Source: Thermodesulfobacteriota bacterium (GTDB lineage: Bacteria; Desulfobacterota; Desulfomonilia; Desulfomonilales; Desulfomonilaceae). Taken from it: 14,513 nt of DNA. Position 1 is the stretch's first letter. Each line of letters starts with the position of its first letter. The notes below the pieces were generated by a model that ran no database searches, was not told where the DNA came from, and saw only the letters and a list, made by a program, of their open reading frames with translations. The stretch is from contig JAUPKT010000337.1 in the NCBI GenBank assembly GCA_030837305.1, positions 1 through 14,513 on the forward strand, given 5' to 3'. Position numbers and translations under genes: made by a program. Positions 2,637-13,596 of this stretch are shown here, in pieces.

Positions 2637-5120
2637 ATGCTTCAGGAGAAAACAACCGTAGGCATAGAGGAAGAAGTTCAGAAATCCTATCTTGATTATG
2701 CCATGAGCGTCATCGTCGGGCGTGCCTTGCCCGATCTTCGTGACGGTCTCAAACCCGTTCATAGGCGCATCCTATATGCCATGCATCGAGCCGGCAATCT
2801 ATGGAATCGTCCTTATAGGAAGGCTGCCCGAGTTGTCGGAGATGTGATCGGACAGTTTCATCCTCACGGAGACACTGCTGTGTACGACTCTGTCGTTCGC
2901 ATGGCTCAGCCTTTTTCCATGCGCTATACCTTCGTTGACGGCCAGGGAAATTTCGGAAGTGTCGACGGGGATTCCCCTGCGGCCATGCGATATACGGAAG
3001 TCCGCATGGCACGCATTTGTCAGTCATTGCTCGAGGACCTTGACAAAGATACCGTGGCGTTCGTCCCCAATTATGACAATACTCAACAAGAGCCTCTAAC
3101 CCTACCGGCAAGGTTTCCTGTGCTCCTCGTTATAGGATCTCAGGGCATAGCCGTGGGAATGGCCACCAATATTCCGCCCCACAACCTCGGAGAGACCATT
3201 GATGCGGTCGTACATCTCATCCACAATCCGAATGCATCGCTGGCCGAACTGATGAAGTTGCTTCCGGGGCCTGATTTCCCGACATCCGGCTACATCAGCG
3301 GTCGACGGGGGATCATCGACGCATATTCCACAGGACGTGGCTCCGTGAGGATGAAGGCCAAAGTCGAAACGGAAGATGTGGGGAAAGGATTCCAGAGACT
3401 CGTGGTTACTGAGATTCCCTACTTGGTCAACAAGGCGAGAATGGTTGAGAATGTCGCGGAACTAGTCAAGGACAAGCGAATAACCGGCATTCGAGACATA
3501 CGGGATGAGTCCGACCGAGAGGGTATGAGGGTCGTTTTTGAACTGAAGCGTGACGAAAATCCAGACGTTGTGCTCAATCAGCTTTTTCGTCATACCCAGT
3601 TGCAGACGAATTTCGGCATTCAATTGCTCTGCGTAGATAACGGACGACCCAAAACAATGAATCTCATCGAAATCTTACAGGGATTCATTGCCTTCAGGAA
3701 AGAAGTGGTCATTCGGAGAACTCGCTTCGAATTGGCACGGGCTCGAGAACGGGCCCACATCTTAGAAGGGCTCAAGACGGCCCTTGATCATCTCGATGAA
3801 GTCATAAACATTATCAGAAAGGCTGAAAACCCTTCCACCGCAAAACAGGCTTTGATCGATAATTTTCAGCTCAGCCCGATACAATCACAAGCAATTCTGG
3901 ATATGAGGCTCCAGAGACTGACAGGCCTTGAACGAGACAAGATCTTGCAGGAATTAGATGAAGTGCGAGCCAAAATTGTTGAACTCGAAGCACTCTTGGC
4001 CTCTGACGAGAAGATATTAGATGTGATAGTTGCGGAATTGCAGCAGGTGAAAGATCAGTTCGCAGACCCTCGCAGAACAATCATCCTTGACGAGGAAGCT
4101 GAAACTCTGGACGAGGATCTTATCCCCCGTGAAGATGTCGTGGTGACGTTCTCGAGCAAAGGCTACATCAAAAGGATGGCGGCGAATCTCTACAAATCCC
4201 AGCGACCTGGGGGTAAGGGAAGGATCGGCACGCGGGTCGGAAGTGAGGATGTGGTGAACCAAATTCTCTATGCCTCATCCCACGATGTGCTGCTCTCTTT
4301 TTCCAACAGAGGTCGAGTCTTCTGGCTGCGGGTGTTTCAGGTGCCCGAAGAAGGATTCTACGGTCGGGGGAAAGCAATCATTAATCTGCTGCGTATGGAG
4401 CCGGGAGAGAGGATACGTAAAATACTTCGTGTACAGGAACTCAGCACGGAAGGATACATCGTGATGGTATCCGCCCTCGGGAAGATAAAGAAAACATCTA
4501 CCGGGGAATTTTCCCGACCAAGATCGACAGGGCTCATAGCCCTCACCATCGACCCTGAAGATGAACTCATCGACGTGAACTTCACCTCAGGTGACAATGA
4601 CATCCTCCTGGCCAATCGGAGAGGGAAGGCCATTCGCTTCAACGAAGCATTGGTAAGGCCCATGGGACGTCAAGCTCGGGGTGTTACCGGAATGAGGCTC
4701 CAGAGGGGAGATGCCATAGTGGGAATGGCCGTCATTACTGATCCCCAGGCGACATTGCTCACCATAACGCAGAGCGGTTTTGGGAAAAGGACCTCTTTGG
4801 CCGAGTATCCCGTGAAGGGCCGCGGTGGACAAGGCGTCATAACCATAAAAAATACCGCTCGCTTAGGCGATGTCGTTGGGATCCAACTCGTCGATGATTC
4901 CGATCACTTGCTCATACTCACCTCGGCGGGAAAAATAATCCGGCTTCGAATGGAAGAGATCTCCGTCATAGGTCGAAATACTATGGGGCGTACCCTTGTT
5001 CGTATGGATGCGGGCGAATACGTAGTTGATGTGGCAAGGGCTGAAGCCTCGGAGGAAGAGATAATCGATGAGATCGACGCACCCGAAGAGTCTCAAAACA
5101 ACTCCGGGGACCCTGAATGA
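2637..5120 (+). CDS. gyrA: DNA gyrase subunit A
   Basis: Breakage-reunion subunit of the A2B2 gyrase that adds negative supercoils. The 827-aa protein is complete. The N-terminal winged-helix region holds GLKPVHRRILYAMH, the quinolone-determining region HPHGDTAVYD, and the catalytic Tyr at about residue 119 in AMRYTEVR. The coiled-coil gate includes QRLTGLERDKI. The C-terminal beta-pinwheel carries the GyrA box as QRPGGKG (residues 522-528), which separates it from ParC. The protein ends in an acidic tail, as E. coli GyrA does. The position equal to E. coli Ser83 is Thr80 here and Asp87 is kept (Asp84). ATG 2637 has GAGAGG at 2617-2622 as a rather distant ribosome site. gyrB is not next to it. 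The 3' end overlaps the archease gene by 53 nt. Confidence 0.98.
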   Translation: MLQEKTTVGIEEEVQKSYLDYAMSVIVGRALPDLRDGLKPVHRRILYAMHRAGNLWNRPYRKAARVVGDVIGQFHPHGDTAVYDSVVRMAQPFSMRYTFVDGQGNFGSVDGDSPAAMRYTEVRMARICQSLLEDLDKDTVAFVPNYDNTQQEPLTLPARFPVLLVIGSQGIAVGMATNIPPHNLGETIDAVVHLIHNPNASLAELMKLLPGPDFPTSGYISGRRGIIDAYSTGRGSVRMKAKVETEDVGKGFQRLVVTEIPYLVNKARMVENVAELVKDKRITGIRDIRDESDREGMRVVFELKRDENPDVVLNQLFRHTQLQTNFGIQLLCVDNGRPKTMNLIEILQGFIAFRKEVVIRRTRFELARARERAHILEGLKTALDHLDEVINIIRKAENPSTAKQALIDNFQLSPIQSQAILDMRLQRLTGLERDKILQELDEVRAKIVELEALLASDEKILDVIVAELQQVKDQFADPRRTIILDEEAETLDEDLIPREDVVVTFSSKGYIKRMAANLYKSQRPGGKGRIGTRVGSEDVVNQILYASSHDVLLSFSNRGRVFWLRVFQVPEEGFYGRGKAIINLLRMEPGERIRKILRVQELSTEGYIVMVSALGKIKKTSTGEFSRPRSTGLIALTIDPEDELIDVNFTSGDNDILLANRRGKAIRFNEALVRPMGRQARGVTGMRLQRGDAIVGMAVITDPQATLLTITQSGFGKRTSLAEYPVKGRGGQGVITIKNTARLGDVVGIQLVDDSDHLLILTSAGKIIRLRMEEISVIGRNTMGRTLVRMDAGEYVVDVARAEASEEEIIDEIDAPEESQNNSGDPE
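5051..5056 (+). promoter_or_regulatory. Ribosome binding site of archease, inside gyrA
   Basis: GGAGGA lies 11 nt before ATG 5068, within codons for the acidic gyrA tail. No ATG, GTG or TTG occurs in the archease frame between 5068 and the conserved HTAD block, so this site fixes the start and the 53-nt overlap. Confidence 0.7.
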
Positions 5121-5577
5121 CGAAAACACTGTTTCAGAGAGAAAATCCAAGCACAGGGGAGCCTCCAAACGTTGGAGATTCCTTAATCATACAGCAGATC
5201 TAAGAATTGAGATTCTTGGTGCCACCCTGGCAGATCTATTCGTCAACGCAGCCAACGCATTAGCCCATCTCTTGATCGGAGATCCACAAATTTCTCATCA
5301 ACATGAAAGGCACGTCAGCCTGACGGCTGATACGGTGGAAGACCTCATGGTGGAATGGCTCCGGGAACTCCTTTTTGAGTATCAAGTCCACGGAAAGGTC
5401 CCAGCCCATGTTGAAATACTCGAAATCCAAGATACCTTTGTCAACGCCATGATTCGTTTTGGGATTCCCAAAGTTCCGAAACTCCCGGATTTCGAAATCA
5501 AGGGAGTGACGTATCATGGCCTGGAAATTTGTCAAACCGGAAAGAGATGCTCTGCACAGGTTATTTTTGATATCTGA
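5068..5577 (+). CDS. Archease (RtcB activator protein)
   Basis: Archease speeds RtcB guanylylation and allows multiple turnover, and can widen its nucleotide use. Seen: RFLNHTADLRIEILG at residues 37-51 with the conserved HTAD acidic residue (Asp44), the helix TVEDLMVEWLRELLFEY (89-105), EIKGVTYHGLEI (143-154), and the C-terminal VIFDI with the second conserved Asp (168). These are the hallmark blocks of the family. The 169-aa length exceeds the usual 140 or so because about 35 residues precede HTAD; that basic, polar extension is coded partly by sequence shared with gyrA in another frame. ATG 5068 is the only standard start and has an excellent GGAGGA. RtcB is encoded two genes downstream, which supports the functional link. 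Confidence 0.93.
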   Translation: MRSTHPKSLKTTPGTLNDENTVSERKSKHRGASKRWRFLNHTADLRIEILGATLADLFVNAANALAHLLIGDPQISHQHERHVSLTADTVEDLMVEWLRELLFEYQVHGKVPAHVEILEIQDTFVNAMIRFGIPKVPKLPDFEIKGVTYHGLEICQTGKRCSAQVIFDI

Positions 5578-6497: not shown

Positions 6498-7946
6498 ATG
6501 GTCACCAAGAAATACACCATCAGACGCCTGGATGACATCAGATGGGAGATTCCCCGAGTTGGAGGAATGAGGGTTCCAGGACTGATTTTTGCTGATGAGC
6601 TAACCCTCCCTGAGATCGAGAAGGATCAGAGTGCAGATCAAGTATATAATGTCGCCCACCTACCGGGAATCGTCGGCAGGTCAATGGCGATGCCGGATGT
6701 TCACTGGGGATATGGCTTCCCCATTGGCGGTGTTGCAGCATTCGATATGGACGAAGGGATCGTGTCCCCAGGAGGAGTAGGATACGATATTAATTGTGGC
6801 GTGCGACTCGGCATAACCAACCTTTACCGGGAGACCATTGCTCCGGAGATTAGGAAAATTATTGACGCACTCTTTGCGCAGGTGCCCTGCGGTGTGGGTT
6901 CCCGCGGAGGCATCAAACTCAACAAGAAATCAATGGGGGAGGTACTCAAGACAGGAGCTGCTTGGGCTGTCAAACAAGGCTTCGGTGACAACGCGGAACT
7001 GGACATGATCGAGAATAGGGGTGTCATACATGATGCAGACCCCAACGCGGCCAGCGAAAGGGCCTTTGAAAGAGGAAAGGATCAGCTCGGCACCCTTGGT
7101 TCGGGAAACCATTTCTTGGAGATAGGATACATTGACGAGATATTTGACGAGACTATCGCGAGGTCATGGGGGCTAGATCTCCAGAGAGTGACCATAATGA
7201 TCCATAGCGGATCAAGGGGTTTTGGTTATCAAATATGTGATGAATTCCTCTCCCGCATGGTCAAAACCTTCCACAAGGAAGGAATAGAAGTTCCAGACAG
7301 ACAACTCGCATGCACGAAGCTCAAAGGAGCCCTTGGCAAACAATACCTGGCGGCTATGGCAGGAGCGGCCAATTTCGCCTTTGCCAACCGGCAGATACTC
7401 ATGCATTTGACCGGCAGAGCATGGCAGCAGGCAATGAATATTTCTCCGCGAGACCTCGGCATGAGGCTTCTCTATGATGTTTGCCACAACATTGCAAAGA
7501 TCGAAACCCACACGGTTAACGGAAAGCCCATGAAACTCTGTGTTCATAGAAAAGGAGCCACGAGATCTCTCCCGGAAGGTCACCCGGACTTGCCTCCTCG
7601 TTACCGGCCTACCGGTCAACCTGTTCTTATACCCGGAGACATGGGCAGAGCCTCGTACATACTCGTGGGTAGGCAAGGAGCCATGGACCAGACATTCGGA
7701 TCAGCATGCCACGGGGCTGGCCGCCTCCTGTCACGGAGCGAGGCCATCAAGAAAACCCACGGGCGTTCCATAGACAGGGAACTCGAAGCACGGAATATTT
7801 ACCCCCGGTGGGTTGGCCGCAAGACTCTCCGGGAGGAGTGCCCAGAGGCTTATAAAGATGTCAGTCTGGTAGTAGACATCGTTCAGCGCGCCGGCCTTGC
7901 TCATAAGGTTGCCCGAATCAGGCCTTTGGGGGTTGTGAAAGGCTAG
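6498..7946 (+). CDS. rtcB: RNA-splicing ligase RtcB
   Basis: RtcB joins RNA 5'-OH ends to 3'-phosphate or 2',3'-cyclic phosphate ends, using GTP and Mn2+. All metal and catalytic positions are visible in the 482-aa protein: GYDINCGVRL (Asp97, Cys100), GSGNHFLE (His205), MIHSGSRGFG (His236), CHNIAK (His330) and GSACHGAGR with His405, the expected guanylylated residue. MPDVHWGYGFPIGG near residue 65 is also typical. The length matches archaeal and archease-dependent RtcB enzymes (about 480) rather than the shorter E. coli form (about 408). ATG 6498 has TGAGGA at 6485-6490 with good spacing. The archease gene two positions upstream indicates an archease-dependent ligase. No RtcR regulator or RtcA cyclase lies nearby, unlike the E. 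coli operon, so control probably differs. Confidence 0.97.
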   Translation: MVTKKYTIRRLDDIRWEIPRVGGMRVPGLIFADELTLPEIEKDQSADQVYNVAHLPGIVGRSMAMPDVHWGYGFPIGGVAAFDMDEGIVSPGGVGYDINCGVRLGITNLYRETIAPEIRKIIDALFAQVPCGVGSRGGIKLNKKSMGEVLKTGAAWAVKQGFGDNAELDMIENRGVIHDADPNAASERAFERGKDQLGTLGSGNHFLEIGYIDEIFDETIARSWGLDLQRVTIMIHSGSRGFGYQICDEFLSRMVKTFHKEGIEVPDRQLACTKLKGALGKQYLAAMAGAANFAFANRQILMHLTGRAWQQAMNISPRDLGMRLLYDVCHNIAKIETHTVNGKPMKLCVHRKGATRSLPEGHPDLPPRYRPTGQPVLIPGDMGRASYILVGRQGAMDQTFGSACHGAGRLLSRSEAIKKTHGRSIDRELEARNIYPRWVGRKTLREECPEAYKDVSLVVDIVQRAGLAHKVARIRPLGVVKG

Positions 7947-8171: not shown

Positions 8172-8399
8172 ATGAAAAAGTTGATTAATCTGCTTACAGT
8201 AGGAGCTTTCTTGGTTGCAGTTCCTCTCGCGATGGCTCAGGGGCAGCCTGGCACAGCTCCCGCCGCACCGGCGGGGACAGACAAGCCGGCCAAGTCCATA
8301 AACTGTTGCGTCAAAGGCAAGTGTGAGCAGGCCAAGTCAGAGGCGGACTGCGCCAAACTCGGCGGAAAAGTCGTCAGCGACTGCAAGGACTGCAAGTAA
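8172..8399 (+). CDS. Small exported six-cysteine protein, function unknown
   Basis: A 75-aa protein that I do not recognise by name. Residues 1-22 form a clear signal peptide (MKK, hydrophobic core, AMA before the cut), so the mature protein of about 53 aa should lie in the periplasm or outside. A Pro/Ala/Gly-rich linker (23-42) leads to a compact domain with six cysteines: C45, C46, C51, C60, C71, C74, ending in DCKDCK. The even number and wide spacing suit disulphides or metal binding; neither is shown. ATG 8172 has AGGAGG at an 8-nt spacing, which argues for strong translation. A strong hairpin 22 nt after the stop suggests a one-gene transcript. Translation signals, signal peptide and Cys pattern together make it a real gene. 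Confidence 0.82.
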   Translation: MKKLINLLTVGAFLVAVPLAMAQGQPGTAPAAPAGTDKPAKSINCCVKGKCEQAKSEADCAKLGGKVVSDCKDCK

Positions 8400-8420
8400 C
8401 CTCTAGTCCGCCCCTTCAAC

Positions 8421-8448
8421 GGTGCCCCGACCTCATGGCCGGGGCATC
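8421..8448 (+). terminator. Strong GC hairpin, probable terminator of the small Cys-rich gene
   Basis: GGTGCCCCG (8421-8429) pairs with CGGGGCATC (8440-8448), nine pairs including one G·T, with CC/GG pairing further in around a TCAT loop. It starts 22 nt after the stop codon. The following sequence is only moderately T-rich, so termination may be partial. Confidence 0.6.
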
Positions 8449-8611
8449 ATGATTTAAAGGTATTGCGTTGCATTCTTGTGAAAGCCTTTGTCCGTGGCCA
8501 CTCAGGATTGAGGCTGCGAAGCTGGTGCCGTCCGATAGACAATATCCACACTGATGATATGATGTGCCCCGGAGCGAGCAGCATGATGGCCACTGCGAGG
8601 AGCTTTCGGGC
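8449..8611. other. Leader region of the sigma factor operon
   Basis: Between the hairpin at 8421-8448 and the sigma factor start lie the promoter at 8536-8563 and the GAGGAG ribosome site at 8597-8602. A GTG-started extension of the sigma frame (8564-8611) is open but begins inside the predicted -10 region. No ECF-like GAAC/GTC pair is seen here. Confidence 0.5.
8536..8563 (+). promoter_or_regulatory. Sigma70-type promoter of the ECF sigma operon
   Basis: TAGACA (8536-8541, 5 of 6 to consensus), 16-nt spacer, TATGAT (8558-8563, 5 of 6), with TGA before the -10 giving an extended -10. The predicted transcript begins near 8570, leaving a leader of about 42 nt to ATG 8612. This placement also rules against a GTG start at 8564. 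Confidence 0.6.
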
Positions 8612-9253
8612 ATGAATCACGTCGATAACGAGGATTTCCTTCTCGTCAAGGAGTGTTTGGATGGTTCCGAGAAAGCTTGGCAGGAATTCTACAGCCGTTT
8701 TATACTCTTGATGCGGAATGTGATAAGGAGGCATGCAGGTTTCACTTCTCTAGAAATTGATGACGTAACGCAGTCAGCTTTTCTGTCGCTCACCAGCGCT
8801 TTGCAGAACTACGATGGGAAACACCCTCTCTCCAGCTTTGTGTGTCTCATTACACAACGGGTTCTCATTGATGAAATCAGGAAAATGAAGGCTATGAAGC
8901 GGGAGTCGGAAACTGAATCAATAGATCACCATGACTCACTGGGTGATGGATTACGAATGGTGGCGTCGGATACAGAGACGGCTGATGTCCAAATTGAGCG
9001 CTTCGAGAATGCCGAAGTGCTGAGAACAGCTATGGAAAGAATCGATTCTGATTGTCGGGAATTGTTGAGCCTGAGATATCTAGGAGAAATGCCTTTCAGC
9101 GAGATCGCCACGGTCCTCGGCGTGACTGAAAATACACTCAACGTGAGAGCGGGACGATGTTTGAGCAAACTCAGGGCCGCGTACAAAGAACTTGAGAGAA
9201 GTGGAAACAGGGCGTGGAAGACAATGGCCGGAAACGACTCCAAGGGCACGTAG
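8612..9253 (+). CDS. ECF-type RNA polymerase sigma factor
   Basis: Extracytoplasmic-function sigma factor that would direct RNA polymerase to a stress or envelope regulon. Sigma2 spans about residues 20-92, with the core-binding IDDVTQSAFLSLTSAL and the region-2.4-like QRVLIDEIRK. A linker with many acidic residues follows. Sigma4 spans about 136-190, with LSLRYLGEMPFSEIATVLG and the recognition helix VTENTLNVRAGRCLSKLR. The 213-aa length is normal. ATG 8612 is chosen because GAGGAG (8597-8602) lies 9 nt before it and a promoter -10 ends at 8563; the longer form from GTG 8564 would add 16 residues lacking family resemblance. The 3' end overlaps the anti-sigma gene by 40 nt, the usual coupling of such pairs. 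No second copy of its presumed target promoter was seen ahead of it, so self-activation is not evident. Confidence 0.93.
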   Translation: MNHVDNEDFLLVKECLDGSEKAWQEFYSRFILLMRNVIRRHAGFTSLEIDDVTQSAFLSLTSALQNYDGKHPLSSFVCLITQRVLIDEIRKMKAMKRESETESIDHHDSLGDGLRMVASDTETADVQIERFENAEVLRTAMERIDSDCRELLSLRYLGEMPFSEIATVLGVTENTLNVRAGRCLSKLRAAYKELERSGNRAWKTMAGNDSKGT

Positions 9254-10209
9254 AAGCTGAACTCTTCTCGTACCTGCATGAGGAGCTTTCGCTGGAGACT
9301 CGGAAAAGAATCGACGAGCATCTTCGCGACTGCCCTTCATGTCGGACGGAGTTATGGGAAATACGGAACCTCGAAGCGGCTTTGGGGAAAAATCGTACTG
9401 CCCTTTGCCCCAATTCTTCAGAACTGTATGAATATGCCAAGTCCCAGAGAGACCCCAATCGTACCATTGAGCCCCATCTCAGACAATGCGAGATGTGCCG
9501 CTCAGAACTCGCAGAATATGCCCAACTGCCTCAAACACAGCCCTTGCCCAAAGAACTCTGGCAGAAGATCAAAGACGTCTTGGAGCCACGTTCCGCAGAA
9601 AACGCTGAAACATATTCAGATCAGATTGAAAAGGTTTCCTTCCTTCAAAGGATATTTGGATCTTTTAAGCTTCCTGCCGCTGTTACTGCTGCAGTTGCCG
9701 CCGCATTGCTGGTGTTTATTCTTTATCCATCACAAGTTCCAGACTCTTTCGTAGGACTGACGGCGAGCCCTTGGGAACAGATACCGAAATCAAAGACCAG
9801 TATTGACACCGGAAAACAGCGGGTCGCTTTCATTGTCATGTTCAAAGAATTTAAGAAATCCGTCCCTCAATCCATCATCGACCTCTCGTACAAAGCTATT
9901 ACACCGGACATAGAAACTGTGGACCAATATGACGTGATTGACCCTTCCGTTGTGAGCAGGACCCTGAGAAAGTCGGTTCCGAAATCCCCTCATCCAGACC
10001 AAGTATTGGAGATTCTCCAAAGGGACCTGGGAGCGTCTCTTGCGGTGGTCATAAATGTCTCTCCATCCGCTCGGGGCTTTGACATCCATGGAAGCCTCAT
10101 CGAAATATCACTGAGAAAAGACCTGAAAGCCGTGGCACGGATGAATGTGGATCAGGATCAATTAGGGAAGGCAATGAAGGAACTCGGCTTTAGTCTCCTC
10201 TTGAATTGA
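9214..10209 (+). CDS. Membrane anti-sigma factor with two zinc-finger motifs and a CsgG/FlgO-like outer domain
   Basis: A 331-aa protein likely to hold the preceding sigma factor inactive at the inner membrane. The cytoplasmic part has two zf-HC2/ZAS-like motifs: HLRDCPSC (His36, Cys40, Cys43, with His12 upstream) and HLRQCEMC (His88, Cys92, Cys95, with Cys65 upstream). One transmembrane segment (about 153-172, Ala/Val/Leu-rich) follows. The remaining 160 residues should be periplasmic. They contain RVAFIVMFKEFKK, a helix with SIIDLSYKAI, DQYDVIDPSVV, ILQRDLGASLAVVINVS and FDIHGSLIEI, an alpha/beta rhythm resembling CsgG, FlgO or TolB-N type outer-membrane-associated domains. That likeness is by pattern only. 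GTG 9214 starts within the sigma gene; the ribosome site is weak, so translational coupling is likely. Typical anti-sigma factors have one ZAS motif and a shorter or different outer part. Confidence 0.85.
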   Translation: MEDNGRKRLQGHVEAELFSYLHEELSLETRKRIDEHLRDCPSCRTELWEIRNLEAALGKNRTALCPNSSELYEYAKSQRDPNRTIEPHLRQCEMCRSELAEYAQLPQTQPLPKELWQKIKDVLEPRSAENAETYSDQIEKVSFLQRIFGSFKLPAAVTAAVAAALLVFILYPSQVPDSFVGLTASPWEQIPKSKTSIDTGKQRVAFIVMFKEFKKSVPQSIIDLSYKAITPDIETVDQYDVIDPSVVSRTLRKSVPKSPHPDQVLEILQRDLGASLAVVINVSPSARGFDIHGSLIEISLRKDLKAVARMNVDQDQLGKAMKELGFSLLLN

Positions 10210-10220
10210 ACCCCGGGCGA

Positions 10221-10247
10221 GAACATCTGCGGCTCTCCGTTGTCTGA
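10221..10247 (+). promoter_or_regulatory. Candidate ECF-type promoter before the caspase-ankyrin gene
   Basis: GAAC (10221-10224), 17-nt spacer, GTCTGA (10242-10247), resembling the common ECF pattern of an AAC-containing -35 and a CGTC-like -10. It starts 12 nt after the anti-sigma stop codon. It would give a leader of about 110 nt. Such short motifs occur by chance, so this stays a candidate. Confidence 0.3.
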
Positions 10248-10275
10248 GACACAGGTAGGTCAACAAGACCAAACT

Positions 10276-10337
10276 AATGCGCGGCATTTTAGCGAACTCT
10301 ATACAAAGCCAAGTAAAAAAGTAGTTTTCCGCGCATT
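10276..10337 (+). repeat. 9-bp perfect inverted repeat in the caspase-ankyrin leader
   Basis: AATGCGCGG (10276-10284) and CCGCGCATT (10329-10337) are exact inverted copies 44 nt apart. The second arm ends 25 nt before ATG 10363 and 5 nt before the AGGAAAGG ribosome site. It could be an operator or an RNA stem that controls translation. Confidence 0.55.
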
Positions 10338-10362
10338 GTGCCAGGAAAGGGAATGGGGCGTC

Positions 10363-12609
10363 ATGAAGTGTCTGGTATCGGTCTTTGCGGCAATTCTCTT
10401 GTCTTTTGTCTCGATATTCTCCGTCTGTCCTGTATATGGCAAGCCCCCTACGAAAGACCCCATGGGGTCTCCACCAGGAGCACGAGGAAAGCTCTATGCC
10501 CTAGTCGTAGGAGTGGGTCTCTATAAAGATGGGGCACTTCCAAAACTGGACTTGGCTGATCAGGATGCAAAGGCCTTTGGGGATTTCCTCAAAACCCAAG
10601 ACCGCTTGTTTCACGAGGCTCAGATAACCTCACTCATCAATGACAAAGCCACCAAGGCGGAAATTGAAAAGTATCTCTACTATACTCTACCAAAGGCTGG
10701 CAAAGACGATACGGTGATTCTGTTCTTGAGTGGCCATGGCCGTTTCGATCCCATGCGTCCCAAAGAATTCTTCTTTTTGCCCCATGACGCGGAAAACGAA
10801 TTCATTGCCACCACCGGTGTCAGGATGAGCGGCCTGGAATTCCTAAATGGTATCAGCGCAGAGAAAATTCTCATCATAGCGGATGCTTGCTACGCGGGCG
10901 GGTTTTCCCAAATGAAGGCAAAATCTCCGGTTCCCTCCCTCGAACTGTTCCTCAAAGAGGCCAAGCACTCTTCTGGGAGGGCGATCATAAGTTCTTCAAA
11001 AGATGGACAACTCTCTTGGGAATTACCCGGCCATAACAACAGCGTATTCACCCATAATCTCTTGGAAGGACTGAGAGGCAAGGCAGACCGGGACCATGAC
11101 GGTCTCGTCACTCTGAACGAAGCATACGAATACGCATACGCTCAGACGAAAGACGCCACCAAGGGGCGACAGCACCCTCAATTTGAAGGGTCTGTTGTGG
11201 GGATGTTCCCACTCTCCGTAGTGGGCTCGCGTCCATCGGATCGGGAACTGAGGGCTCGGTTTCTCAAACTCGTTGCCGATGGAGACAAAGACGGCACGGA
11301 TGCTTTGCTTTCCCTCGGCGTCGATGTGGATTACCGGGATCAAGAGAACATAACCCCTCTTATGGTCGCAGCATCTGTTGGGCATGTGGAAATAGTTAGA
11401 CTGTTGCTTGCCAAAGGGGCTGACCCAAACGCAACCGACAACTCTCGGACAGGGCCTCTTTCTCGGGCAGCGAGTCAAGGACATATTGAAATTGTGAGGT
11501 CGCTTCTTGACACAGGTTCACGACAAGATCAGAAGGATTCGCAAGGTTGGACTGCCTTGGCTCATGCAAGTCATAATGGGCATGCGTCAGTATCAGAAGC
11601 CTTGATGGCGTCCGGGGCTGATCCGAAAACCCGAACGGACACAGGAGACACTCCATTGGGGATGGCGGCTTCCAAAGGACACGTCAAGACCATCGAAGTG
11701 CTGCTGGATTGGGGAACCGAAGTCAACACAGTGGACCTGACGGGCGTAAGTCCCTTGATGAAAGCTTGCCGCTCAGGCAACGCCAAGGCTGCCGAGTTGC
11801 TGCTGGACCGGGGAGCTGAGCTGAAATTGCGGTGGGGGACCCAACCTCAACTCGACCTCCTCACGGCTTCCGTCAGAGGAGATGTGCCCCGCATAAAGAA
11901 GCTATTGGAACTAGGTATTTTTGTAGACAGTGAAACCGACACGGGAGAAACTCCCTTCATGTTGGCCGCATGTCTCGGGCATGTTGATGCAATAAAGATC
12001 TTGGCCCAGCGCAAGGCCAATATAAACGTTAAAGGTCCCGACAACCGTACACCCTTTATGATGGCTAGTTCTCAGGGAAATATGCCCATGGTGTCCGCTC
12101 TGATGAAGCTTGGAGTTGACATTCACGTGAGGGATGGCTTGGGCAACTCCGCATTGATGCTCGCAGTAATCAACGGACGCGCAGACGTGGTCAAGCTTCT
12201 CATCAATGCATCCGTCGACGTGACGAGTGTCAATAGTATCGGCATGACTCCCCTCTTATACGCCGTGGAAAACAATTACATGGAGCCGGTTCGAATGCTT
12301 CTCGCCAAAGGCGCCAAGGTCACGGAGAAGGATAAGAATGGGAACACCGCCCTCATGATCGCCTCCCAGAGGGGGAATTCAGAGGCGGTTAAACTGTTGT
12401 TGGCAAAGGGATCCAATGTGAACGAAAAAGATCTGGAAGGTAACACAGCGCTCACAAAGGCCGTTCATCAAGGTGACAAGACATTGGTAAGAATGCTCAT
12501 AGCCGCAGGCGCCGACGTACACGCGCGAGACTGGGAGGGCAAGACGGCACTCGCCAAAGCCGAGGAAAACAACCGTTCTGACCTCGTGGAGTTATTACGC
12601 ACTCGATAA
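10363..12609 (+). CDS. Exported caspase-like protease (peptidase C14) with about 14 ankyrin repeats
   Basis: A 748-aa protein. Residues 1-26 are a signal peptide (hydrophobic core, PVYG before KPP); the Cys at 22 does not fit a lipobox. The caspase-fold domain spans about 42-285: YALVVGVGLYKD, catalytic dyad His125 in LSGHGRFD and Cys176 in IIADACYAGG, then ISSSKDGQLSWE and SVFTHNLLEGL. A 12-residue EF-hand-like loop, DRDHDGLVTLNE (242-253), may bind Ca2+. From about 294 to the end lie ankyrin repeats. Bacterial and plant caspase homologues of this type usually cut after Arg or Lys; that is family knowledge. ATG 10363 is preferred over TTG 10240, which would bury the signal peptide behind 41 unrelated residues. 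It follows the anti-sigma gene by 153 nt on the same strand and probably belongs to its regulon. Confidence 0.92.
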   Translation: MKCLVSVFAAILLSFVSIFSVCPVYGKPPTKDPMGSPPGARGKLYALVVGVGLYKDGALPKLDLADQDAKAFGDFLKTQDRLFHEAQITSLINDKATKAEIEKYLYYTLPKAGKDDTVILFLSGHGRFDPMRPKEFFFLPHDAENEFIATTGVRMSGLEFLNGISAEKILIIADACYAGGFSQMKAKSPVPSLELFLKEAKHSSGRAIISSSKDGQLSWELPGHNNSVFTHNLLEGLRGKADRDHDGLVTLNEAYEYAYAQTKDATKGRQHPQFEGSVVGMFPLSVVGSRPSDRELRARFLKLVADGDKDGTDALLSLGVDVDYRDQENITPLMVAASVGHVEIVRLLLAKGADPNATDNSRTGPLSRAASQGHIEIVRSLLDTGSRQDQKDSQGWTALAHASHNGHASVSEALMASGADPKTRTDTGDTPLGMAASKGHVKTIEVLLDWGTEVNTVDLTGVSPLMKACRSGNAKAAELLLDRGAELKLRWGTQPQLDLLTASVRGDVPRIKKLLELGIFVDSETDTGETPFMLAACLGHVDAIKILAQRKANINVKGPDNRTPFMMASSQGNMPMVSALMKLGVDIHVRDGLGNSALMLAVINGRADVVKLLINASVDVTSVNSIGMTPLLYAVENNYMEPVRMLLAKGAKVTEKDKNGNTALMIASQRGNSEAVKLLLAKGSNVNEKDLEGNTALTKAVHQGDKTLVRMLIAAGADVHARDWEGKTALAKAEENNRSDLVELLRTR
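11242..12606 (+). repeat. Ankyrin repeat array in two stacks (protein-level repeats)
   Basis: About 14 units of roughly 33 residues follow the consensus TPLxxAxxxGHxxxVxxLLxxGAxxN. The first six begin with a cap-like unit (ARFLKLVADGDKDG). At about 11842 the pattern restarts with another cap-like unit (LDLLTASVRGDVPRIKKLL) after a short irregular stretch LKLRWGT, then continues for eight units to the stop. The DNA of the units differs widely, so the repeats are old and not prone to slippage. Confidence 0.85.
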
Positions 12610-12626
12610 CCCCTTCAAAAAGAATG

Positions 12627-12663
12627 ACCTGAGACTCGGCGAGTTCCATTGTCAGGTGTTTTT
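12627..12663. terminator. Two-way terminator between convergent genes
   Basis: ACCTGA (12627-12632) pairs with TCAGGT (12652-12657), enclosing an inner hairpin ACTC-GGC-GAGT (12634-12644). On the plus strand GTTTTT follows (12658-12663); on the minus strand the stem is followed by a T5 run (the A-run at 12617-12621). It can serve both the caspase-ankyrin gene and the methyltransferase gene, whose stop codon lies in the stem. Confidence 0.55.
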
Positions 12664-13596
12664 CGGTGATCTGCCAACAAAATCAAGTTGATGTGCGATG
12701 TAGACGAGAACAGCATTGTCGATTTGTTCATGCCGAACCCGCAACCACTCCTCGAACATCCTGTGATTCAAATCCGGATGCCCTGCTAAAGCTTTCCCCA
12801 TCGTATCTATAATGAAATGGAGAAAATAGGCTTCTTTGTCCTGATAACCGCCCTCGTCGGCATACACTACCCAGTCCGAGGATCCTGCGGCAAGTAAATG
12901 GGCTCCAACGTTCCGCAGGTGTCCGAATAAATGTCGCCCGGTCCTGCTATCTCCCGACGGTTTTCCCCTTGTGATTCGGCTATCCATGGTCTTATGGTAC
13001 AGACTTTCTATGAGGCAATCTAAGCCTGAATCGATCTCCGGTTCCAGGAAGGTGCCTCCGTCGAAATTGACGGAAAAATAGAAGAGGTTGCCCGGCTTGA
13101 GAACGCTGAAGAGTTTCTTTAGGGAGGCTCCCACATCCAGGAGGTCCAGAAAAGCATTGGCCATCAACAAGTCCCATTTTTCAGACACGCCAACCTGTTT
13201 AAGAAAATCAAAGAAATCAGCGGTCACGAATCTTACAGAGGTTCGATGACCATCCCGTTCCAGTAGAAAATGCGTATCACTCAGATTCTTCAAGGAACAG
13301 CCGTTTGGGGGCGCCCACTTCACGAGTCGCTGAACCGCTTCCTCTATATTTTCACCCATGGAGTCCAGGGCGGTATATTCACAACTCTCAAATAACCTCC
13401 ATTCCATGCATCGCTCAAACATGGTGCCGATCCCGGCGCCAATCTCGAGAATTCTCGGCATTGGGATGTTTTGACTCAGTGAATGGAACTCATCCTTGAG
13501 AACGTTCCACACATTCTTGTTCAGTGCACGATCGTCTACAGTTCTCTTAGATTCAAGATACTGTATGAAATCATAATCACGTGTTAGGCCCATCAT
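12652..13596 (-). CDS. Class I SAM-dependent methyltransferase
   Basis: A 314-aa protein with a Rossmann-type methyltransferase domain. Motif I is ILEIGAGIGTMFERC (residues 49-63), the acidic post-I position is in EYTALDSM (Asp78), a further acidic motif is VTADFFDFL, and the post-catalytic strand is KWDLLMANAFLDLL, followed by LKPGNLFYFSVNFDGGTFLEP. The N-terminal block YLESKRTVDDRALNKNVW lies ahead of the fold and looks family-specific. The substrate is not visible. The C-terminal third is extra to the core fold and may bind substrate. The start ATG has a TGAGGA about 9 nt upstream on the minus strand. It lies 25 nt after the glycosyltransferase gene, so both are probably one operon and may modify the same sugar or lipid-linked product. 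Confidence 0.85.
   Translation of the reverse strand: MMGLTRDYDFIQYLESKRTVDDRALNKNVWNVLKDEFHSLSQNIPMPRILEIGAGIGTMFERCMEWRLFESCEYTALDSMGENIEEAVQRLVKWAPPNGCSLKNLSDTHFLLERDGHRTSVRFVTADFFDFLKQVGVSEKWDLLMANAFLDLLDVGASLKKLFSVLKPGNLFYFSVNFDGGTFLEPEIDSGLDCLIESLYHKTMDSRITRGKPSGDSRTGRHLFGHLRNVGAHLLAAGSSDWVVYADEGGYQDKEAYFLHFIIDTMGKALAGHPDLNHRMFEEWLRVRHEQIDNAVLVYIAHQLDFVGRSPKNT

Follow-up and report, generated by a model that had tools for sequence, protein, structure and literature searches.

In this study, we analysed a window of 14,513 nt, which is contig C65 of a draft genome (2.8 Mb, 576 contigs) from a member of the Desulfomonilaceae. Three open reading frames (ORFs) on its + strand (8564-9253, 9214-10209 and 10240-12609) encode, in this sequence, an extracytoplasmic function (ECF) sigma factor, a membrane anti-sigma factor and a caspase-ankyrin protein, and the first two share a 40-nt overlap. 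This order and overlap had been described in a first-pass annotation, together with the double-zinc-finger type of the anti-sigma factor and, in the third product, a caspase fold with its catalytic dyad, ankyrin repeats and a signal peptide. All of these were borne out, the signal peptide as a prediction.

The sigma, anti-sigma and caspase-ankyrin genes

The features of the unit are as follows:

8536..8563, + strand: putative sigma70-like promoter of the sigma/anti-sigma pair, TAGACA-N16-TATGAT (consensus match only)
8612..9253, + strand: ECF sigma factor, 213 aa from ATG 8612, in an ORF that opens at GTG 8564 (domain scores, tree)
9214..10209, + strand: membrane anti-sigma factor, with zinc-finger sets at residues 12-43 and 65-95, a transmembrane (TM) segment at 153-171 and a TolB-N-like ectodomain at 200-331
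9772..9795, + strand: juxtamembrane motif WEQIPKSK, anti-sigma residues 187-194, candidate cleavage stalk
10220..10244, + strand: putative ECF-type promoter of the caspase gene, AGAAC-N16-TGTC
10363..12609, + strand: predicted exported caspase-ankyrin protein, 748 aa, with signal peptide 1-26, C14 domain about 45-276, H125 and C176, EF-hand-like loop 242-253 and ankyrin array 301-748

The caspase gene almost certainly starts at ATG 10363 and not at TTG 10240, since a clean signal peptide begins at the former and the latter overlaps the −10 element of the promoter. For the sigma factor, ATG 8612 is more likely than GTG 8564, as it agrees with the homologues and sits past the sigma70-like −10 box, which ends at 8563. 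This putative promoter fits the consensus at 10 of 12 positions and has a TG before the −10; it must be noted that five promoter-like sites were found in 8380-12700, with 3.0 expected.

The sigma factor scored over the curated cut-offs of Sigma70_r2 (33.4 bits, cut-off 24), Sigma70_r4_2 (36.5, cut-off 25.7), Sigma70_ECF (32.2, cut-off 21.1) and TIGR02937 (89.8, cut-off 42.9). Its neighbour gave one match to zf-HC2 over the cut-off (31.4 bits, cut-off 22.2), and both zinc sets could be aligned in 14 rows, the first (H36/C40/C43) being nearly invariant and the second (C65/H88/C92/C95) invariant in all 14. The HxxxCxxC motif, the only hydrophobic segment found by hydropathy (residues 153-171, one TM) and the gene adjoining that of the sigma factor are those of a ZAS-type anti-sigma factor. 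The ectodomain showed a structural match to the TolB N-terminal domain fold over the domain. Between membrane and ectodomain, the motif WEx[VI]x[KR][PS]K was present in 6/6 anti-sigma factors that accompany caspase-ankyrin genes and in 0/8 others (alignment A1). Two protein-database searches with the anti-sigma factor returned 4 and 5 homologues, and the motif was also found in the three further close homologues examined of the five found. This juxtamembrane stretch is more conserved (32-44%) than the remaining ectodomain (20-28%). With respect to a possible site-2 protease, M50 matches were obtained in 6/6 genomes, strongly RseP-like in 5/6, the best in the window's own draft genome having an E-value of 7.3e-14. 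Apart from the unit, the TM plus TolB-N-like segment also ends a conserved protein of about 800 aa, seen in six copies (L244:7708-10116, L245:6414-8966, L246:1476-4106, L247:1809-4226, L248:163-2583 and L249:2607-4799, the last cut short by a contig end). The one copy scanned had no Pfam match, and that of L244 lies between MMPL and LolA_like genes.

The third protein matched Peptidase_C14 with 54.6 bits (cut-off 21.4), followed by ankyrin repeats, likewise over the curated cut-off, up to the C-terminus. The dyad motifs SGHG and DACYAG are intact, H125 and C176 are invariant, and both the dyad and the EF-hand-like loop are kept in 7/7 caspase-ankyrin orthologues. In the caspases with a DUF4384 domain that are linked to related sigma genes (see below) the dyad is kept and the loop is missing; therefore, control by Ca2+, if real, would not be general. 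The putative acids of the S1 pocket, D68 and D174, were invariant in 8/8 rows and were matched by eye to Asp95 and Asp211 of TbMCA2; metacaspases are described as preferring Arg/Lys (PMC4357240). A caspase profile reached GSU0716 (3bij, E 1.3e-5) and Metacaspase-4 (6w8s, E 9.9e-5), a PDB search with the caspase part as a single sequence gave 0 matches, and the EACC1 model NF047832 scored 91.8 bits, under its cut-off of 140. In fold searches, the matches listed were taken up by the ankyrin array. Identity among orthologues was 57-76% in the caspase domain and 34-44% in the ankyrin array. The faster evolution of the array suggests changing targets over a fixed partner, and it is not decisive because the anti-sigma ectodomain evolves faster still. 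By hydropathy, an N-terminal hydrophobic segment was seen in all 16 partner peptidases whose N-terminus is complete, a result that depends on the start chosen.

A defence island or MZA system was considered and was unsupported, the strong matches being to ankyrin repeats. In a scan of defence families, the sigma and anti-sigma factors matched none, the caspase matched a generic "caspase" model (47.7 bits), and the best-matching stretches of the models PDC-M72A, Ankyrin and MzaA were all within the ankyrin part.

Conservation, linkage and the caspase promoter

Ninety-nine genomes, including that of the window, were searched (E <= 0.001); matches to the anti-sigma factor were obtained in 21 and to the caspase domain in 32. 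A hit in or near an IF2-like ORF (L020) was dropped. Of the 36 caspase-domain places in the family, 10 have a sigma/anti-sigma pair on their own strand at a distance of up to about 5 kb. The window caspase falls in a clade of seven caspase-ankyrin rows (support 100/100 in the caspase tree), and the three-gene order, whose conservation the first-pass annotation proposed to check, is retained in 5/6 orthologues with readable surroundings (the window, G002, G007, G008, where the sigma gene was detected by tblastn, and G012). The seventh row, G009, is on a contig that begins inside the caspase and was counted neither for linkage nor for the promoter. In G012, two genes, for an AAA_15-type ATPase and a 181-aa protein of unknown function (L047:2635-4410), are inserted between the anti-sigma and caspase genes, and the caspase has its own promoter. 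In G004, presumably the genome of Desulfomonile tiedjei, the caspase lies 42 kb from the pair and on the opposite strand, a geometry that a single inversion could explain. Caspase homologues away from any such pair had been named in advance as telling against the unit. This objection holds in part: 26 of the 36 places, 24 of these being paralogues, were not shown to be linked, and the one orthologue concerned (1/6, that of G004) has kept its promoter.

The partner genes varied within a single lineage of sigma factors. In the sigma tree, 14 sigmas form one clade (support 84/87), whose sub-clades adjoin caspase-ankyrin genes, TPR-CHAT genes (L053, L051), or OmpA-TPR genes with TPR-CHAT and caspase-DUF4384 (L057, L060); in L055 (7935-10920), a repeat-less caspase gene and directly after it a gene for an HtrA-like trypsin/PDZ protein stand next to the pair. 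In the caspase tree, the linked caspases fall at three separate positions, and the anti-sigma partners of caspase-ankyrin proteins are not one clade in their tree (two changes), unlike in the sigma tree. By hand count, 10/13 determinable pairs have a C14 or CHAT gene no more than 5 kb away on their own strand, against the 0.06 that the density of these genes would predict (Poisson-binomial tail about 4e-22). The pairs are not independent, and therefore the four partner types are a sounder count than 10/13. The linkage count leaves out G013 (contig end), the L056 anti-sigma gene without a detected sigma gene (CHAT genes lie no more than 5 kb away, none of them downstream on that strand) and three divergent pairs (L061-L063), two of which have C14 genes downstream. 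As a control, 0/5 related anti-sigma genes of the family with longer ORFs (L115, L117, L118, L120 and L121, with a sigma gene detected beside three; L116 and L119 left out owing to contig ends) adjoin a C14 or CHAT gene. The label "linked" requires six changes in the caspase tree, and 82/500 shuffles were equally low, so linked caspases are not clustered there; ten fragment or divergent rows were left out of this tree (G012_C306d, G006_C122, G010_cas, G008_C99b, G001_cas, G001_cas472, G012_C306c, G001_C18b, G000_C364N and G057_b). The presence of several clan-CD peptidases beside one sigma lineage suggests that the coupling is kept and not a particular peptidase.

Outside the family, a sigma hidden Markov model matched in 2/63 loci, many of them short-flanked. 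One, from Spirochaetales (L156:2904-10741), has a sigma gene, a zinc-finger anti-sigma gene and, a few genes further along, a caspase of 985 aa; in the other, from Brevundimonas (L182:7317-10705), the sigma match is about 2.7 kb upstream of the caspase match.

The GGAAC and GTC boxes are usual in ECF promoters. In the caspase-ankyrin genes, RGAAC-N16-TGTC lies 87-287 nt before the start in 6/6 testable orthologues, the split G004 copy included. Mean pairwise identity was 89% in the −35 box and 100% in the −10; the spacer had 32%, and the 40-nt flanks had 26% and 29%. When one position of the dyad was allowed two-fold degeneracy, the best shared form reached 6/6, against a maximum of 3/6 in 200 dinucleotide shuffles, and the family loci, 593 kb in all, held 17 motif matches (10.8 expected), six of them the caspase-ankyrin promoters. 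Given that the motif precedes the gene in all six cases with largely unrelated spacers and flanks, even in the split locus, the caspase gene is most likely a target induced by the pathway. The exact motif was present before 0/14 sigma genes (500 bp each; 168 bp for G015), so there is no sign of transcriptional autoregulation, and sigma autoregulation by the caspase-promoter motif was rejected. From these sequences, the caspase gene looks sigma-controlled and the sigma/anti-sigma pair of the window does not look autoregulated. No + strand terminator-like site was listed between 10209 and 10363, and therefore read-through into the caspase gene is also possible. The upstream windows were offset by 2-3 nt, the sigma start of the window being taken as 8614 (ATG 8612) and the G002 caspase start as 7968 (ATG 7965).

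Across all sigma upstreams, all partner upstreams and the two sets pooled, a general search for dyads gave nothing above shuffles. In the degenerate search, sigma upstreams shared dyads in 5/6; these were read as the coding end of a small Cys-rich gene and not as a promoter. This gene was missed by the first-pass annotation:

8172..8399, + strand: small Cys-rich protein, 75 aa, predicted to be exported (tblastn synteny with the sigma loci of caspase-ankyrin units)

Its homologue stands directly upstream of the sigma gene in 6/6 of these loci and was not found in nine other loci of the same tblastn database. It had no Pfam match, and a second relative is seen in L052, near 1739-1933.

A regulon search with the more stringent RGAAC-N16-TGTCRAA in six genomes gave 27 matches, against 21 for the reversed pattern. 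Four are caspases; of the other 23, 15 are inside ORFs of at least 150 aa and eight outside. Two of these eight (L225 and L240) lie 195 and 34 nt, respectively, before ORFs of 265 aa and of 129 aa, the latter with an export-like N-terminus, and they could be further sigma targets or chance matches.

Additional caspase and CHAT genes were noted in the family. The window's own genome has a second caspase gene (G000:C364:4602-5441, L097) with one internal TAA stop, either a disruption or a draft error, and in L104:460-2550 a caspase domain is fused to PDZ and Peptidase_S41 (CtpB-like) domains, two protease types in one protein. CHAT proteins are expanded in Desulfomonilaceae, with 19 matches in G003, 16 in G006 and at least one in 18/18 genomes. 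Elsewhere in the window, archease and RtcB RNA-ligase genes stand close to each other (5068-5577 and 6498-7946), separated by a PAP2 phosphatase gene.

A proposed induced, exported effector and its alternatives

In attention to the above, we consider it somewhat more probable than its denial that the unit is a conserved envelope-signalling cassette in which the exported caspase is the effector induced by the sigma pathway. The sigma/anti-sigma pair would be made from the housekeeping-type promoter, the double-zinc-finger domain would hold the sigma factor at the membrane, and the TolB-N-like ectodomain would monitor the envelope. Once the anti-sigma factor is inactivated, the freed ECF sigma factor would transcribe the adjacent caspase gene from the RGAAC-N16-TGTC promoter. 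The product would be exported to the periplasm and work in that compartment as a protease of the metacaspase type, probably one that depends on Ca2+ and is specific for basic residues, with the ankyrin array as a substrate-binding arm. Between the two alternatives raised in the first-pass annotation, an effector that the pathway induces gains from the promoter footprint in 6/6 testable orthologues, the moved G004 copy among them; cleavage of the periplasmic part of the neighbour was not borne out and is only possible.

Several observations weigh against this reading. A looser form of the motif, GAAC-N15..17-KGTC, occurs before 3/14 sigma genes, one case being GGAAC-N16-GGTC at −268 of the G003 C69 sigma gene. 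The exact-word dyad search gave GGAAC/TGTC in only 3/6, which 2/60 shuffles equalled, and that result was the lead from which the degenerate 6/6 form was derived; the motif was thus derived from the very six sequences used to count it, and these orthologues share ancestry. Genome-wide enrichment of the motif was absent, as six genomes contained 582 matches (both strands, about 31.8 Mb), fewer than the 736 of the reversed pattern. No exact motif precedes the partner genes of the other sigma sub-clades. Three of the 13 determinable pairs are without a partner peptidase. In addition, hydrophobic N-termini were seen by eye on unlinked caspase paralogues too and are therefore no special mark of the linked peptidases.

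The same data can be read in other ways. The exported caspase could be a site-1 protease that cuts the anti-sigma factor outside the membrane, an M50 protease of the RseP type then finishing the cleavage and releasing the sigma factor. The caspase and the anti-sigma ectodomain are both predicted to be periplasmic, the conserved basic juxtamembrane motif and the invariant S1 acids would suit a metacaspase preference for Arg/Lys (PMC4357240), M50 proteases are at hand in the genomes, and there is a precedent in the cleavage of the sigma inhibitor Csx30 by Csx29 (PMC10028731). We nevertheless regard this as unlikely, since a sigma-type promoter of its own is more in keeping with an output than with a constitutive releaser, the basic motif may be inherited in its six carriers, which are closely related, not every pair has a peptidase nearby, and the type of peptidase is swapped while the anti-sigma factor stays. 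A latch, in which the sigma-induced caspase would cut the remaining anti-sigma factor as positive feedback, combines the promoter footprint with the basic motif and the S1 acids; it is also improbable, as the sigma genes lack the exact motif. It is very unlikely that the neighbours are functionally unrelated, with inherited synteny and a chance motif. The unlinked places in the family and the rarity of sigma matches outside it would agree with this, but not the linkage far above expectation, the occurrence of CHAT and of three caspase lineages next to a single sigma clade, or the promoter footprint. Equally remote is a catalytically idle caspase serving as scaffold or receptor, whose ankyrin array would signal to the anti-sigma ectodomain: a long array would suit protein binding, whereas the dyad and EF-hand-like loop are kept throughout the orthologues and the caspase domain is far more conserved than the array.

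A more speculative proposal, which we hold to be doubtful, is a self-latching switch. The exported metacaspase would be both the output of the sigma factor and the cutter of its membrane inhibitor at the basic stalk, with a peptidase slot repeatedly refilled in evolution by caspase-ankyrin, caspase-DUF4384 or TPR-CHAT proteins. If true, it would be an envelope counterpart of Csx29-Csx30-CASP-sigma.

The control and function of bacterial caspase homologues are mostly unknown. For the induced effector favoured here, the control side is directly testable, with a defined promoter, a sigma factor, an anti-sigma factor and one predicted-exported caspase, and the split G004 locus is a natural experiment.

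Comparison with known systems

The site-1 protease of the RseA system is a PDZ serine protease. The unit resembles RseA/DegS/RseP in its single-pass anti-sigma factor with a periplasmic domain and in the M50 proteases of the genomes. No DegS-type PDZ serine protease was found among the scanned proteins of the window (no genome-wide search for it was made), and among the linked loci scanned, an HtrA-like gene was present only in L055, beside the caspase.

The partners of CASP/Craspase, a system of type III-E CRISPR, are cytoplasmic and soluble; unlike them, those of the window are a predicted-exported C14-ankyrin protein and a membrane zinc-finger anti-sigma factor. No Cas family was found among the 13 window proteins scanned, the rest of the genome not being searched for Cas7-11. 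It is established that Csx29, a caspase-fold peptidase, cuts Csx30, the inhibitor of an ECF sigma factor, and regulated proteolysis of the RseA/DegS/RseP type is named there (PMC10028731). As in the window, the caspase-fold peptidase, the inhibitor of the ECF sigma factor and the sigma factor are encoded together, and proteolysis was proposed to relieve the inhibition; the peptidase, on the other hand, is TPR-CHAT and is switched by Cas7-11 with target RNA (PMC10028731).

Operons of sigma-70 and metacaspase genes were reported in 2012 for Myxococcus, Anaeromyxobacter, Haliangium, Sorangium, Ralstonia and Fibrobacter in a survey that found 70 of 217 metacaspase operons without known function (PMC3501461). 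They share with the window a sigma factor and a C14 gene in one predicted operon; compared by description only, no anti-sigma factor, export or promoter is named in the portion of that text consulted (PMC3501461). An ECF sigma factor and DUF1822 were described near EACC2-caspase genes in 2021, and a caspase-sigma coupling was proposed (PMC8195603). The likeness lies in a caspase with variable C-terminal parts and an ECF sigma factor nearby, and the differences in the EACC2 module and in the word anti-sigma being absent from that text (PMC8195603); in the window, the caspase is predicted to be exported and falls under the cut-off of the EACC1-caspase model.

In the open-licence literature, no other anti-sigma/caspase unit of this sort was among the matches listed, although the Myxococcus operons may hold anti-sigma genes. 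With respect to these systems and as far as the literature was searched, the membrane anti-sigma factor, the predicted export, the promoter and the exchange of one peptidase type for another are new.

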